The notes beneath the pieces were generated by a model, which was not told the origin of the DNA, did no database searches, and saw only the letters and a list, made by a program, of their open reading frames with translations. The position numbers and the translations under genes were made by a program. A stretch of DNA of 64,000 nucleotides from Bradyrhizobium sp. 139 (lineage in GTDB: Bacteria > Pseudomonadota > Alphaproteobacteria > Rhizobiales > Xanthobacteraceae), in contig NZ_JADPKS010000051.1 of NCBI RefSeq assembly GCF_023074175.1, positions 1-64,000 of the forward strand, given 5' to 3'. Every line of letters begins with the position of its first letter. Positions within the stretch are counted from its first letter, which is position 1. Positions 40,838-50,090 of this stretch are shown here, piece after piece.

Positions 40838-41137
40838 ATGGCGAAGAAGGCAGCCGCTCCCGCCACCATCACGCTCAAGCACCTCGCCGCTGACATCGCG
40901 GAGAGCCAGGACCTCTCGAAGAAGCGCGCCGAAGCCGTCCTCACCGACATGGTCGACCTGATCACCAGGCACCTCAAGAAGGGCGACCGTGTCCGCATCG
41001 TCGGTCTCGGCATCCTTCAGGTCCGCAAGCGCGCCGCCCGCACCGGTCGCAATCCCGCGACCGGCGAGCCGATCCACATCAAGGCCAGCAAGAAGGTCGC
41101 GTTCCGCCCGGTCAAGGAACTGAAAGAGGCGATCTAG
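40838..41137 (+). CDS. HU family DNA-binding protein
   Basis: A 99-aa nucleoid protein of the HU/IHF family. It starts AKKAAAPATITLKHLAADIA and carries GDRVRIVGLGILQVRKRAAR and the hallmark GRNPATGEPIHIKASKKVAF that forms the DNA-clasping arm. The N-terminal Lys/Ala lead is slightly longer than in classic HU. It stands alone, 206 bp after tRNA-Asp, and is followed by a terminator. The lon gene, often adjacent to an HU gene, is 12 kb away in the opposite direction. Confidence 0.93.
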   Translation: MAKKAAAPATITLKHLAADIAESQDLSKKRAEAVLTDMVDLITRHLKKGDRVRIVGLGILQVRKRAARTGRNPATGEPIHIKASKKVAFRPVKELKEAI

Positions 41138-41175
41138 CAGCTTACGCTTCGTTAAGCCTGATCCGGCCGCGGTCC

Positions 41176-41197
41176 GGCCGCAACGCGGCCCGCTTTT
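41176..41197 (+). terminator. Rho-independent terminator after the HU gene
   Basis: The stem ggccgc/gcggcc with a 3-base loop (aac) is followed by cgctttt, 39 bp after the HU stop codon. Confidence 0.6.
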
Positions 41198-41242
41198 CTG
41201 GTATACCGCCAGCTTCCCTCAGGCCCGGCGGTTTGACCAGAA

Positions 41243-42493
41243 ATGTCCTTCCTCACCTTCACGCATACCGTGACCGAGCGCTTCCTGCGCTACGTCACCA
41301 TCGACACCCAGTCCGATCCGGAATCCCCGGCCTCGCCCTCGACCGAGAAGCAGAAAGACCTCGGCCGCGTGCTCGCCGCGGAGTTGAAAGCGATCGGCAT
41401 CGCGGACGCCCATCTCGACGACTACGGCTACGTCTACGGAACGATCCCGGCCAACACCGACAAGAAGGTGCCGGTGATCTGCTTCTGCTCGCACATGGAC
41501 ACCTCGCCCGACTGCTCGGGCAAGGACGTCAAGCCGCAGGTGGTGAAGAATTATCGCGGCGGCGATATCACGCTGCCCGGCGACACCAGCCAGATGATCC
41601 GCTTCGCCGAGCATCCCGCGCTGAAGAACCAGATCGGCAACGACATCATCACCACGGACGGCACCACGCTGCTGGGGGCCGACAACAAGGCCGGCGTCGC
41701 CGAGATCATGGATGCCGCGTATTTCTTCGTCAACAACCCCGACGTGAAGCACGGCACCATCAAGATCCTGTTCACGCCGGACGAGGAGATCGGCCGCGGC
41801 GTCGACAATGTCGACCTGAAGAAGCTCGGCGCCGATTTCGGCTACACCATGGACGGCGAGAGCGCCGGCTGCGTCGAGGACGAGACTTTCTCGGCCGACG
41901 GGGCCACCATCACCATCAACGGCGTCAGCGCCCATCCCGGCTATGCCAAGGGCAAGATGGAGCACGCGATCAAGATCGCGGCCGCCATCGTCGAGCGTCT
42001 GCCCAAGGAAGGCTGCTCGCCGGAGACGACCTCGGGCAAGCAGGGCTTTCTGCATCCGATCGGCATCGAGGGCGCGCTGGAGCAGGCAACGCTCTCCTTC
42101 ATCGTCCGCGACTTCACCGAGGAAGGGCTGAAGGAGAAGGAAGTCCTGCTCGAGAACATCGTCAGGGACGTGATAAAGGACTATCCGCGCTCGACCTACA
42201 AGTTCGAGGTGAGGGAGCAATACCGCAATATGAAGCAGGTGATCGACCGTCACCCGCACATCCTCGAATACGCCGTCGAGGCGATCCGCCGCGCCGGCCT
42301 GCGCCCGATGCGCACAGCGATCCGCGGCGGCACCGACGGCTCACGGCTGTCCTTCATGGGCCTGCCCTGCCCCAACATCTTTGCCGGCGAGCACGCGTTT
42401 CATTCGCGGCTCGAATGGGTCAGCCGGCAGGACATGGAGAAGGCGGTGCAGACGATCGTGCATCTCGCCATGATCTGGGAAGAGAAGGCGTAG
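41243..42493 (+). CDS. pepT: Peptidase T (tripeptide aminopeptidase)
   Basis: A 416-aa dinuclear zinc peptidase of family M20B that removes the N-terminal residue from tripeptides in the cytoplasm. Metal and catalytic motifs are CSHMDTSPD (His and catalytic Asp), TTLLGADNKAGVAEI (bridging Asp), TPDEEIGRG (catalytic and metal Glu) and the C-terminal NIFAGEHAFHSRLEWVS with the last His ligand. IRGGTDGSRLSFMGLPCPN is also typical. Length matches the family (about 410 aa). It appears monocistronic. Confidence 0.95.
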   Translation: MSFLTFTHTVTERFLRYVTIDTQSDPESPASPSTEKQKDLGRVLAAELKAIGIADAHLDDYGYVYGTIPANTDKKVPVICFCSHMDTSPDCSGKDVKPQVVKNYRGGDITLPGDTSQMIRFAEHPALKNQIGNDIITTDGTTLLGADNKAGVAEIMDAAYFFVNNPDVKHGTIKILFTPDEEIGRGVDNVDLKKLGADFGYTMDGESAGCVEDETFSADGATITINGVSAHPGYAKGKMEHAIKIAAAIVERLPKEGCSPETTSGKQGFLHPIGIEGALEQATLSFIVRDFTEEGLKEKEVLLENIVRDVIKDYPRSTYKFEVREQYRNMKQVIDRHPHILEYAVEAIRRAGLRPMRTAIRGGTDGSRLSFMGLPCPNIFAGEHAFHSRLEWVSRQDMEKAVQTIVHLAMIWEEKA

Positions 42494-42543
42494 CACCTGT
42501 CTTGATACCTCTCTTGGAGGCGATGTGGCCGGGCTTGCTCCGG

Positions 42544-42588
42544 CCATCATCTTGAGAGCCATCATCTTGGGAGCCATCATCTTGGGAG
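42544..42588. repeat. Three tandem 15-bp repeats
   Basis: Three consecutive units of the type ccatcatcttgggag, the first with one mismatch, lie between the pepT stop and the end of the convergent membrane-protein gene. They are non-coding on both strands as far as I can tell. Confidence 0.7.
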
Positions 42589-43482
42589 CTACGGCACCGG
42601 CATGGAGCGAGGGCTGCGATGGAAGCGGTTCGAGCTCGCCATCCAGTTCGGCAGCGGCTTGCCATCGCGGTGCCGCCCGCCGGCAGCCGCCGCAGCCCAG
42701 GCCACCGCAGCGCCGATCAGGGCCGCTGCAGCCACCGAGAAGGCGACGATGACCGAGTTGCGCCGCGCGCGGTTGATTGCCGTCCGCGCATCCGCGATCA
42801 GGGCGTCGACCCGACGTTCGGACTCGGCCGCCGCCAATCCTGTCAGCGCGGAGACCTGCTGCACGAGGTAGTTGCGATCGTCCGTACTGACGCCGCTATG
42901 GCTCGATGACGTCATCAGGATGCGTCCGGCTTCGGCGCGGGCGTCCCGCATGTCGGTGTTGGGAGGCCGCCGCGGCGCGCGGAACAGCTTGTCGAGCTCG
43001 TAGCTCAACAGCGGCTCGGCGGAGGTCGCATTCCCGGACGAGTTGCGCATCGACGAACGGTCGACCGCGGCCGCGCTGATGATCGCCAGCAGCGCCGCGC
43101 CGATCAAGACGGCGAGAGCCCAGGACGTCAACCCATGAAGCCCATCGCGCCGCTCGCCGTCGTCCTCGATCGTGGCCAGCGCAGGTGCCGGCCGCGCTGT
43201 CCGGCCGGCGATGTAGCCGCCGAAGCCGAAGCTGATGATCGCCTGGATCATCAAATAGAGCCCCGACAGCAGCGCCAGCGCAGCCGATGCATCGCGCCAG
43301 GTCGGTGAAGCCGAGCTGACACCCAGGCCAATGGCGACGCCAAAGCTGACCAGGATGAACGACATCGCGCCCGCGGCCAAAGCGCCGGCGATGACGGAGC
43401 TCCACTGGATGCTCCGGCGTTCCTCGGCGGCTGCGAGTCCGCCTTCCATCAGGTTGTCCTGCACCAGAGTTTCGATCGCCAT
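42589..43482 (-). CDS. Four-helix membrane protein of unknown function
   Basis: A 297-aa protein with three hydrophobic segments in the first half (residues about 28-55, 66-95, 117-141) and a fourth near residues 240-268. The cytoplasm- or periplasm-exposed part between helices three and four is polar and mentions no catalytic motif I know. Gly-rich helices (VIAGALAAGAMSFILVSFG; IISFGFGGYIAGR) resemble small-residue packing motifs of stress-related membrane proteins, but I cannot name a family. It is followed upstream by the 24-aa microprotein gene on the same strand, 10 bp away, which suggests a two-gene unit. Confidence 0.7.
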   Translation of the reverse strand: MAIETLVQDNLMEGGLAAAEERRSIQWSSVIAGALAAGAMSFILVSFGVAIGLGVSSASPTWRDASAALALLSGLYLMIQAIISFGFGGYIAGRTARPAPALATIEDDGERRDGLHGLTSWALAVLIGAALLAIISAAAVDRSSMRNSSGNATSAEPLLSYELDKLFRAPRRPPNTDMRDARAEAGRILMTSSSHSGVSTDDRNYLVQQVSALTGLAAAESERRVDALIADARTAINRARRNSVIVAFSVAAAALIGAAVAWAAAAAGGRHRDGKPLPNWMASSNRFHRSPRSMPVP

Positions 43483-43492
43483 CGCAGCTCTC

Positions 43493-43567
43493 TCAGCGCA
43501 GGCCGAAGAACGACAAGATCGCCATGATCACGACGATCAAGCCGATGAGATAGATCAATCCATCCAT
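43493..43567 (-). CDS. 24-aa hydrophobic microprotein
   Basis: A 25-codon reading frame starting ATG GAT GGA and ending TGA. It encodes a nearly uninterrupted membrane helix, MDGLIYLIGLIVVI, continuing into MAILSFFGLR. A strong ribosome site (gaggaggacgg) lies just upstream. The start, stop, ribosome site and helix composition together make it very likely to be real. It lies 10 bp upstream of the four-helix membrane protein in the same direction. I believe similar short proteins occur in other alphaproteobacteria, but cannot verify it here. Confidence 0.7.
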   Translation of the reverse strand: MDGLIYLIGLIVVIMAILSFFGLR

Positions 43568-43819
43568 GGTCCGTCCTCCTCAACCATTCCTGTCAAACAT
43601 TCTTGGTCGCTAATCAGGAGGAATGAGGAACGTTCCTAATTCGGCATCCCCAGGGAACGAACCGGGGCGATGTGGATTATCTGCTCAAGTCCCAAGGATG
43701 AAGATTGTGAGCACAAAGGCCTCAGCCGGTCAGCCCCGGGCTGGGCCTTTCCGTTTGCACCGCCCAATCTGTCCCCTCCTTGTCCTATGTTAACGACGCC
43801 GGTGCCGCGATCATCAAAG

Positions 43820-44101
43820 ATGCGATTCGGGGCGGAACCTCCAGATGGGGAGCACCGCGTGGATCGCAGAACGGCGTGCCTGCATCAGGCGAATGCATTC
43901 CGGGAGAAGGCGATCGCTGATCCCGAGCACCACGACCAATGGATCGATGAAGCCATTAAATGGCTGGAACGGGCAATGGAAGCCAGCTATCACGCCGTCA
44001 TTACGGTTGAGGCTGACGACACTTGCTGTGCTCCGGAGCCGGCCCGCACAGCGGCGATCGAGACCTTCGCCTCACGCCCGCGCGTCATCGCGCGCCAATG
44101 A
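43820..44101 (+). CDS. Small protein of unknown function
   Basis: A 93-aa hydrophilic protein from Met at 43820; the frame is open further upstream with less protein-like composition, and Met at 43787 is an alternative start. The segment HDQWIDEAIKWLERAMEAS looks like an amphipathic helix. No domain is recognised. The following metal-efflux genes are 120 bp downstream and not obviously related. Confidence 0.45.
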   Translation: MRFGAEPPDGEHRVDRRTACLHQANAFREKAIADPEHHDQWIDEAIKWLERAMEASYHAVITVEADDTCCAPEPARTAAIETFASRPRVIARQ

Positions 44102-44133
44102 AAAGCGGTCACAACGCACGCGCTGCTGCGGCA

Positions 44134-44155
44134 ATTGTTCCACGGACGAAACAAT
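44134..44155. promoter_or_regulatory. Inverted repeat ahead of the metal-efflux genes
   Basis: The arms attgttcc and gaaacaat (one mismatch) are separated by 6 bp and lie about 70 bp upstream of the small HxCHxC protein that leads the efflux operon. This could be an operator for a metal-responsive regulator. No regulator gene is adjacent. Confidence 0.3.
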
Positions 44156-44221
44156 GTTGCGGGTCGACACTGTTCCCACCCCTATGTTAGGCCGGGCGCA
44201 GACCGCAACCAGAGTGACGTC

Positions 44222-44584
44222 GTGCTCGCGAACCGCCAAGCCTCAGGATCTTGCCGCCCGCCCAACTGGCGCGGGCTGCTGTCTGTGCTGATCGCGGTTG
44301 TCTATCTGCTCGCGGGCGCGCTGCACGGCCTGCACGACATCGACGTCACCACGCCCGGCGGCGGCTCGGAGATCGCCGCGGTCCTTGATGGCTCCGCCGG
44401 CCACGGCGACTACAAGACAATCGGCGGCCATCATTGCCATGGCTGCTTCTCGGTGACGGTGGCGCAGCCGACGCCGCCGGCCGCATCGAGCGCGCTCGTG
44501 TCTGCATCGAGCCCGCAACATGCACCCCGGCTCACCGGAATTATCCCCGATACCGACTCCCCGCCTCCCAAGCATATTGCCTGA
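44222..44584 (+). CDS. Small membrane-anchored metal-site protein leading the czc-type operon
   Basis: A 120-aa protein if it starts at the GTG at 44222; an in-frame ATG at 44135 would add 29 residues. It has an N-terminal membrane segment (LLSVLIAVVYLLAGALHGLH), then a polar part with GGHHCHGCFSVTV, a His/Cys cluster suited to metal binding. Its position directly ahead of an outer-membrane factor, adaptor and RND pump is like that of CzcI- or DUF2946-type proteins, which accompany heavy-metal efflux. The family assignment is tentative. Confidence 0.6.
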   Translation: MLANRQASGSCRPPNWRGLLSVLIAVVYLLAGALHGLHDIDVTTPGGGSEIAAVLDGSAGHGDYKTIGGHHCHGCFSVTVAQPTPPAASSALVSASSPQHAPRLTGIIPDTDSPPPKHIA

Positions 44585-44639
44585 ACGGATTGGTCGGGTG
44601 CCCCGCGCCCATTAGGTTCATCCTTCACAGGTCGGTTTC

Positions 44640-45907
44640 ATGTTTCGCAGGGGAATGGCCGCGCGCCTGACGTGCGCGGCAGCGTGTCTGATTGCCGGAT
44701 TGGCGCTTGCTCCGTCTCACGGCCAGACTTTGACCATGCGCGCCGCGCTGTCGCGCGCGCTGACTGCGAGCCCGCGGCTCACCGCAGCGGAGCGCGACGT
44801 CGGCATCGCCACGGGCCAGCGCATCCAGGCCGGCGCCCTGCTCAATCCGGAACTGTCCTATGAACAGGACAATTCGTTCGGGTCGGGCATCTATCGCGGC
44901 ACAAAATCGGCCGAGACCACGGTTCAGATCAGCCAGGCCTTCGAGCTGTTCGGCAAGCGCGACGCGCGGATTGCCGCGGGCGTCGCCGGCGTCGAGGTCG
45001 CCGCGATCCAGCGCAAGGCCGTCAGGCTCGAGGTGCTGTCCGAGACTGCCATCGCTTTTCTGAGCGTGCTCGGCGCGCAGCGCCGCATCCAGATCCTCGA
45101 CGAGCAGATTGCGGCAATCGACCGGCTGACGCCGCTGTTGCGCCGCCGCGTCGAGGCCGGCGCCTCCTCGCCGGCTGAGACCGGCCGCGCCGAAGTCGCC
45201 TCCGCCTTGGTCAAGGCGGACCGCGAACGCTTCAAGGCAACCCTGGCCAGCGCCCGGCGCGAGCTTGCGGTGCTGATGGGCGATCCCGCGCCGAAATTCG
45301 GCGAAGTCTCCGGCCGGCTCGACACGGGACGGCCACCCATGTTCCAGTCCGTGGTCGCCGCCATCGACGCCAATCCCCAACTGGCGCGCTGGACCGCGGT
45401 GTATGCGCAGCGCAACGCGGAGCTGTTGCTGGCGCGGCTCAAGCCCTATCCCGACGTGCGGATCGCCGCCGGTTGGCGTCACTTCAACGAAACCAATGAC
45501 GATGCGGCGCGCATCACCGTCTCGGTGCCGATCCCCGTGTTCGATCAGAACCAGGGCAACATCCTTTCGGCGCAGGAAAGCCTCACCAAGACCAAGGCCG
45601 AGCGCGAGGCCAACCGCAACACGTTGATCGTGGTCGCCGGCCGCGCCTACGATTCGCTCCAGGGCTCGCTGCGCGAGCTCGCGCTGCTGCGCGACACCGC
45701 GATTCCGAAGGCGACCGAAGCGTCGGAAGCGATCGCGCAGGGCTACGGCCAGGGCCGCTTCACCCTGCTCGAAGTGCTCGACGCCCAGGCGAGCGTCGCG
45801 CAAGCGCGGCTGCGCGAGCAGGAGGCGCTCCAAAACTTCCACGCGGGTGTTGCGACCATCGAAGGCCTCGTCGGCAATCCCTTTGCGCTGGCGCGGGAGA
45901 GCGCACG

Positions 45908-45911
<4 letters not shown>
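44640..45911 (+). CDS. TolC-family outer-membrane factor of a metal efflux system (CzcC-like)
   Basis: A 423-aa outer-membrane efflux protein. The signal peptide (residues 1 to about 28) ends SHGQ. The OEP domain repeats follow, with AALSRALTASPRLTAAERDV near the N-terminus, NPELSYEQDN, and the second repeat QGYGQGRFTLLEVLDAQASV near the C-terminus. It forms the exit duct for the neighbouring RND pump. Its stop overlaps the adaptor start by 4 bp (ATGA). Confidence 0.92.

Positions 45912-50090
<4,179 letters not shown>

Follow-up and report, generated by a model that had tools for sequence, protein, structure and literature searches.

The general stress response (GSR) is set off when PhyR becomes active under stress and takes NepR off the sigma factor EcfG. 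Genes dependent on RpoE2 are described as mostly without predicted function (PMC6180224), and the -10 box of GSR promoters is reported to be flexible, as many as 14 kinds being described for Sphingopyxis granuli, with CATT among these (PMC7083833). Among very small membrane proteins, SEP6 (sORF6) of Sinorhizobium meliloti is described as having under 30 aa and a predicted transmembrane helix; it was identified by Ribo-seq and validated by Western blot, is found mainly in the pellet fraction (membranes and ribosomes), and its sORF is reported to be conserved in Hyphomicrobiales (PMC10117765). YohP of Escherichia coli is presented as a stress-linked membrane protein of 27 aa that reduces membrane potential and fluidity (PMC12719787).

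The window analysed here, a stretch of 64,000 nucleotides from Bradyrhizobium sp. 139, contains a short frame for a membrane microprotein with the following surroundings:

43493..43567, minus strand: microprotein ORF of 24 codons, MDGLIYLIGLIVVIMAILSFFGLR, predicted to form a single hydrophobic helix
43575..43581, minus strand: Shine-Dalgarno sequence GAGGAGG, 7 nt 5' of the microprotein ATG, assigned from sequence
42589..43482, minus strand: partner protein of 297 aa (P0001), predicted by AlphaFold to have four long membrane-type helices and a further helical stretch at about 155-240

The microprotein frame starts with the ATG at 43567 and its TGA stop ends at 43493, giving a product of 24 aa, and after a gap of 10 bp it is followed by the ATG of the 297-aa ORF on the same strand. 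The preliminary description had pointed to the excellent ribosome site with start and stop in place and to the 10 bp spacing, both of which were confirmed, as well as to a single hydrophobic helix as the product, which is well supported. The host genome contains one copy of this gene, which is easily missed because it is only 24 codons long.

Conservation and distribution of the microprotein gene

The short frame itself proves nothing, given that 147 ORFs of at least 20 aa overlap the 11 kb around it, and conservation therefore became the deciding question. We examined 52 Bradyrhizobium loci that were chosen through the downstream partner protein (at least 75% identity to that of the window) and not through the microprotein. 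The microprotein was present in all 52 loci, in each case with a Shine-Dalgarno sequence in front of it. Stop codons and frameshifts at the homologous sites, which had been named beforehand as evidence against a gene, were looked for and not found, the stop being at codon 25 in 52/52. The 43 distinct microprotein DNA sequences in this set encoded 6 peptides, the variable sites were distributed 11/0/18 over the three codon positions and the ratio of nonsynonymous to synonymous differences per site was 0.052. This indicated selection on the amino-acid sequence rather than conservation of the DNA as such, which was the distinction that the preliminary description had proposed to check.

A further set was gathered through the peptide itself, using a profile that includes neither the stop nor the ribosome site, and the 210 loci obtained were reduced to 192 distinct loci. 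The product was exactly 24 aa long in 188 of these (three were of 25 aa and one of 30 aa), and the start codons were ATG in 185, GTG in 6 and TTG in 1. A Shine-Dalgarno sequence was found in 182/192 loci compared with 32/192 for the control, taken 50 nt further upstream. Positions G9, V12, L18 and G22 were invariant in all 123 distinct peptides and Y6 was present in 121 of them, a constancy that is partly due to selection by the profile. The window copy shares the features that define the family in alignment A1 (24 codons, G9, V12, L18, G22 and Y6). Coding status, conservation and fixed length are thereby established at the level of sequence, and by this measure the microprotein is a genuine protein-coding gene whose copy in the window would be translated and inserted into the membrane. 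With four constant positions in so many distinct peptides it is unusually constrained for a protein of 24 residues. Packing of the helix through one face found no support, since the conservation moment was reached by 43% of shuffles and the small-residue moment by 25%.

As judged from the genomes searched, many alphaproteobacteria have the microprotein in strongly conserved form, and its distribution is patchy in Alphaproteobacteria and beyond. Matches were found in 105/146 sampled Bradyrhizobium genomes (E <= 1), with many identical peptides and with two to four copies in some genomes. Profile searches detected the microprotein in 41/248 genomes of the family draw and 106/397 of the order draw (E <= 0.01), and in 20/289 genomes of the class draw and 31/299 of the phylum draw (E <= 0.001), where the four draws overlap one another and include Bradyrhizobium. 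Named hosts include Bradyrhizobium, Tardiphaga, Bosea, Mesorhizobium, Methylosinus, Methylocystis and Devosia, and furthermore Reyranella, Rubellimicrobium, Pseudotabrizicola and Shinella. Each of the four Sinorhizobium-like genomes searched had one family member, and outside the class, but within the phylum, seven loci (L226-L232) encoded 24-aa peptides without an adjoining partner; two weaker phylum matches (L233 and L234) did not resemble members. Members were also read directly in three plasmid records, in which no CDS is annotated over the microprotein in an incomplete gene table. A tblastn search of plasmids with the 24-mer gave no match, a result that is probably uninformative since low-complexity filtering was on. 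The locus sample as a whole is non-random: L001-L030 are identical top matches, L134-L213 are the best 80 of 288 confirmed, and L031-L070 and L074-L133 were hand-picked from ranked lists.

Several variants of the arrangement were observed. Adjacent microprotein copies occur in L110, L127, L128 and L132, their starts separated by about 130 to 215 nt, as if by tandem duplication, and in L121 and L245 two close copies are located on opposite strands, the second L245 copy being weak. A subgroup (L100, L164, L206 and L224) has an extra C-terminal arginine, ending in FFGLRR with a length of 25 aa, and its named members are Mesorhizobium.

Neither Pfam nor NCBIfam gave a match to the microprotein, six 9-residue family strings had no match in the literature searched, and the parts searched of PMC5082802, PMC4842269, PMC3420878 and PMC10903887 contain no sign of it. 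As far as searched, the family is undescribed. No Rfam match was found at 41000-46000, a search that covers described RNA families.

The four-helix protein and its association with the microprotein

The AlphaFold model of the 297-aa partner protein was obtained with 45 sequences and had a mean pLDDT of 78.6 and a pTM of 0.70. The protein had no Pfam or NCBIfam family above the curated cut-off (two Pfam matches were far below it, and NCBIfam gave none). When 45 members of the partner family were scanned, the best Pfam match was Phage_holin_3_6, which was weak and found in 6/45 members (E 5e-5), and the NCBIfam matches were scattered over one or two members, with 0.0032 as the best value. A Foldseek search with the model gave 106 matches, 0 of them at E <= 0.001, comparison with solved structures by VIA-align reached a best Z of 6.4 with no clear relative, and the partner profile matched PDB sequences with a best E of 1.2e-6, over 24 residues only. 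The plasmid relatives among those listed are annotated, where at all, as hypothetical protein. Three plasmid homologues (L216, L218 and L219) were without the microprotein in the stretch read; the homologue on a Bradyrhizobium barranii plasmid (L216) is located near genes for DUF1003, a low-affinity iron permease and DUF892, and the one on a Pandoraea plasmid (L218) adjoins a CsbD-family gene.

The microprotein was found directly upstream and on the same strand in 93/93 Bradyrhizobium partner homologues with at least 53% identity and more than 700 nt, a count that excludes seven partial partner matches of at most 700 nt, of which six had at least 53% identity and none had an adjoining microprotein. 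The gap between microprotein and matched partner region in the 93 close homologues was 5 to 78 nt, and often 10 nt. Among distant Bradyrhizobium homologues (32 to 41% identity) an adjoining microprotein was found in 3/28 and was absent beside 25/28. In total 128 of the 136 partner matches were used for these counts, the eight weakest being left out. Paired partners in other genera had identities to the window protein down to about 30%, and a partner-family ORF was located downstream of the microprotein in 144/210 gathered loci of the non-random sample.

Solo copies were also common, as 54 of the 150 Bradyrhizobium microprotein copies listed, from a larger total, were not beside a partner. We further searched 32 genomes that had been chosen for a microprotein copy without an adjoining partner, or as close relatives, not all of which were read and one of which is 75% complete. 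No partner-family gene was detectable in 23/32, and five of the Bradyrhizobium genomes among these 23 also scored no partner in a single-sequence search; in the other 9/32, to which Shinella and each of the four Sinorhizobium-like genomes belong, a partner-family gene was located elsewhere. Solo copies had no common neighbour among the ten neighbouring ORFs scanned of 30 listed, and these ORFs matched, among others, superoxide dismutase, ferritin-like, helicase and methyltransferase families. In an Enhydrobacter MAG (L188) the solo copy is located between iron/manganese superoxide dismutase and ferritin-like ORFs, a position that fits a stress setting, and L205 has ORFs of similar size and place.

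Given that so many of the chosen genomes are without a detectable partner gene and that the neighbours of solo copies are varied, regulating the partner cannot be the sole role of the microprotein, and neither can serving as a leader peptide. The sequence comparisons indicate that association with the partner is strong in the Bradyrhizobium lineage and is not obligatory, and the microprotein may bind the partner there. The suggestion of the preliminary description that the two proteins work together is borne out as an operon association, which is not an obligatory one, and its proposal that the microprotein modulates the larger protein fails as an account of the whole function, since solo copies exist.

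Putative EcfG-type promoters

Two candidate promoter sequences were located upstream of the microprotein gene in the window:

43611..43636, minus strand: putative EcfG-like promoter GGAAC-N16-GATT(A), which starts 69 nt upstream of the microprotein ATG
43654..43679, plus strand: possible divergent promoter GGAAC-N16-GATT(A), proposed from sequence

The canonical motif GGAAC-N15-18-CGTT was present 40 to 150 nt upstream of the microprotein in 33/192 distinct loci, as compared with a mean of 0.63 and a maximum of 3 in dinucleotide shuffles and with 6 in the reverse complement. It was found at both paired (20/130) and solo (13/62) loci. Among the 45 named loci outside Bradyrhizobium, which include near relatives and are not all independent, 19 had the motif, where 0.0044 per region or about 0.2 in total would be expected from the surrounding DNA; it was positioned at -48 to -50 in 4/4 Sinorhizobium-like genomes and in Shinella. 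This enrichment in the family is established by the controls, and general-stress control of the family is well supported by the upstream sequences.

The canonical motif was found in 0/35 named Bradyrhizobium loci and in 0/52 partner-chosen loci, and all 52 of the latter had GGAAC-N15-17-NATT upstream. The putative window promoter agrees with EcfG promoters in the -35 GGAAC and in N16, but its -10 sequence, GATT, has two of four letters different from CGTT, so that the overall match is a weaker one. Control by stress with a variant -10 box is plausible for the window copy, and the microprotein is probably stress-related. The window-type sequence was not supported as a genome-wide regulon motif, given that its own genome contained 2 matches (one of them being the window) compared with 2 for the reversed control.

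On the other strand, the loose motif GGAAC-N15-17-[ACG]ATT was present in 16/21 Bradyrhizobium loci scanned, a raw count with no chance control. Behind the plus-strand GGAAC-N16-GATT of the window is a divergent frame of 80 aa (43859-44101, plus strand; it starts VDRRTACLHQANAFREKAIADPEHHDQWIDEAIKWLERAMEAS) with a recognisable counterpart in 11/21 Bradyrhizobium loci scanned. This frame is perhaps a second stress gene.

Proposed function of the microprotein and comparison with described systems

The reading that we consider probable is that of a stress-regulated, single-pass membrane microprotein, which in this lineage is located in an operon with, and possibly binds, an uncharacterised membrane protein, and which elsewhere occurs alone. 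In the scheme that goes with this reading, RNA polymerase with EcfG would transcribe the microprotein gene after stress has freed EcfG. The transcript would here be a two-gene mRNA that includes the 297-aa membrane protein, and elsewhere would encode the microprotein alone. The peptide would insert as one helix into the inner membrane, with its C-terminal arginine probably facing the cytoplasm, and would act by packing in the membrane. In the present lineage it would most likely associate with, and tune, the co-expressed four-helix protein. The existence of solo copies implies a partner-independent role as well, perhaps a change of membrane properties under stress.

A rather unlikely alternative, which has to be taken seriously all the same, is that the microprotein is autonomous and, in analogy to YohP, alters bilayer properties or the membrane potential under stress, so that the operon reflects shared regulation only. 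The unpaired copies in Bradyrhizobium and the partnerless genomes agree with this explanation, solo copies bear the EcfG motif as well, and the lowered membrane potential and fluidity reported for YohP (PMC12719787) provide a precedent. However, pairing in every one of the close homologues goes beyond what shared regulation would call for, and nine of the chosen genomes, the four Sinorhizobium-like ones and Shinella among them, do have a partner-family gene.

The other explanations are far less probable. A hydrophobic peptide of the type I toxin kind, which would permeabilise the membrane and be restrained by an antisense RNA, could account for a short hydrophobic product, for the several copies in some genomes and for the adjacent pairs (L110, L127, L128 and L132), but it is hard to reconcile with the strong ribosome site, a stable operon with a conserved partner, the wide and strong sequence conservation and the lack of an Rfam match at 41000-46000, and we regard it as improbable. 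Slightly more doubtful still is a leader peptide or translational-coupling device, in which translation of the frame controls the downstream gene and the peptide itself is inert. The short ORF with its strong ribosome site just before a gene, often at 10 nt, has this appearance, but the amino-acid sequence is conserved beyond mere translatability, the gap to the matched partner region varies over 5 to 78 nt and many copies are without such a gene downstream. That the frame is open by chance and is no gene, for which the abundance of ORFs in the same 11 kb could be cited, is next to impossible, being already contradicted by the strong purifying selection on the protein and by the fixed positions of the stop and the ribosome site.

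The preferred reading of a stress-regulated membrane microprotein can be extended, tentatively and with less confidence, to a new 24-residue GSR membrane family that is solo in many bacteria and that in Bradyrhizobium and relatives has become fixed into a two-protein complex with a new four-helix family, the peptide being constant and the partner variable. If the microprotein is part of the general stress response, it would join a regulon whose genes mostly lack predicted function. The solo and paired forms provide a natural experiment on whether such stress microproteins work via partners or directly on the membrane, and the two readings to be told apart are an association with the four-helix protein in the present lineage and direct action on the membrane in others.

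With regard to known systems, the likeness to the EcfG general-stress regulon consists in the GGAAC-N16-CGTT found upstream of many family members (PMC7083833; for RpoE2, PMC6180224), and the difference is that the -10 of the window copy is GATT. The arrangement in the window is also similar to AcrZ and comparable microproteins with a larger membrane protein as binding partner (PMC7267776), in that a small transmembrane protein would act on a polytopic one; for AcrZ a structure with AcrB has been shown, whereas the window microprotein may bind its partner, and members of its family often have none. YohP, as described in PMC12719787, shares with the microprotein its small size, its membrane location and its link to stress, but it comes from a different bacterial group, and the likeness is one of description. 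SEP6 resembles the microprotein family in having fewer than 30 aa and one predicted helix (PMC10117765), and the Sinorhizobium-like genomes have a single family member each, which, unlike that of the window, is without an adjoining partner; the Sinorhizobium member begins MNQIIYLVGL. The comparison was made by description, and as a lead we suggest that SEP6 of Sinorhizobium meliloti may be a member of the microprotein family.
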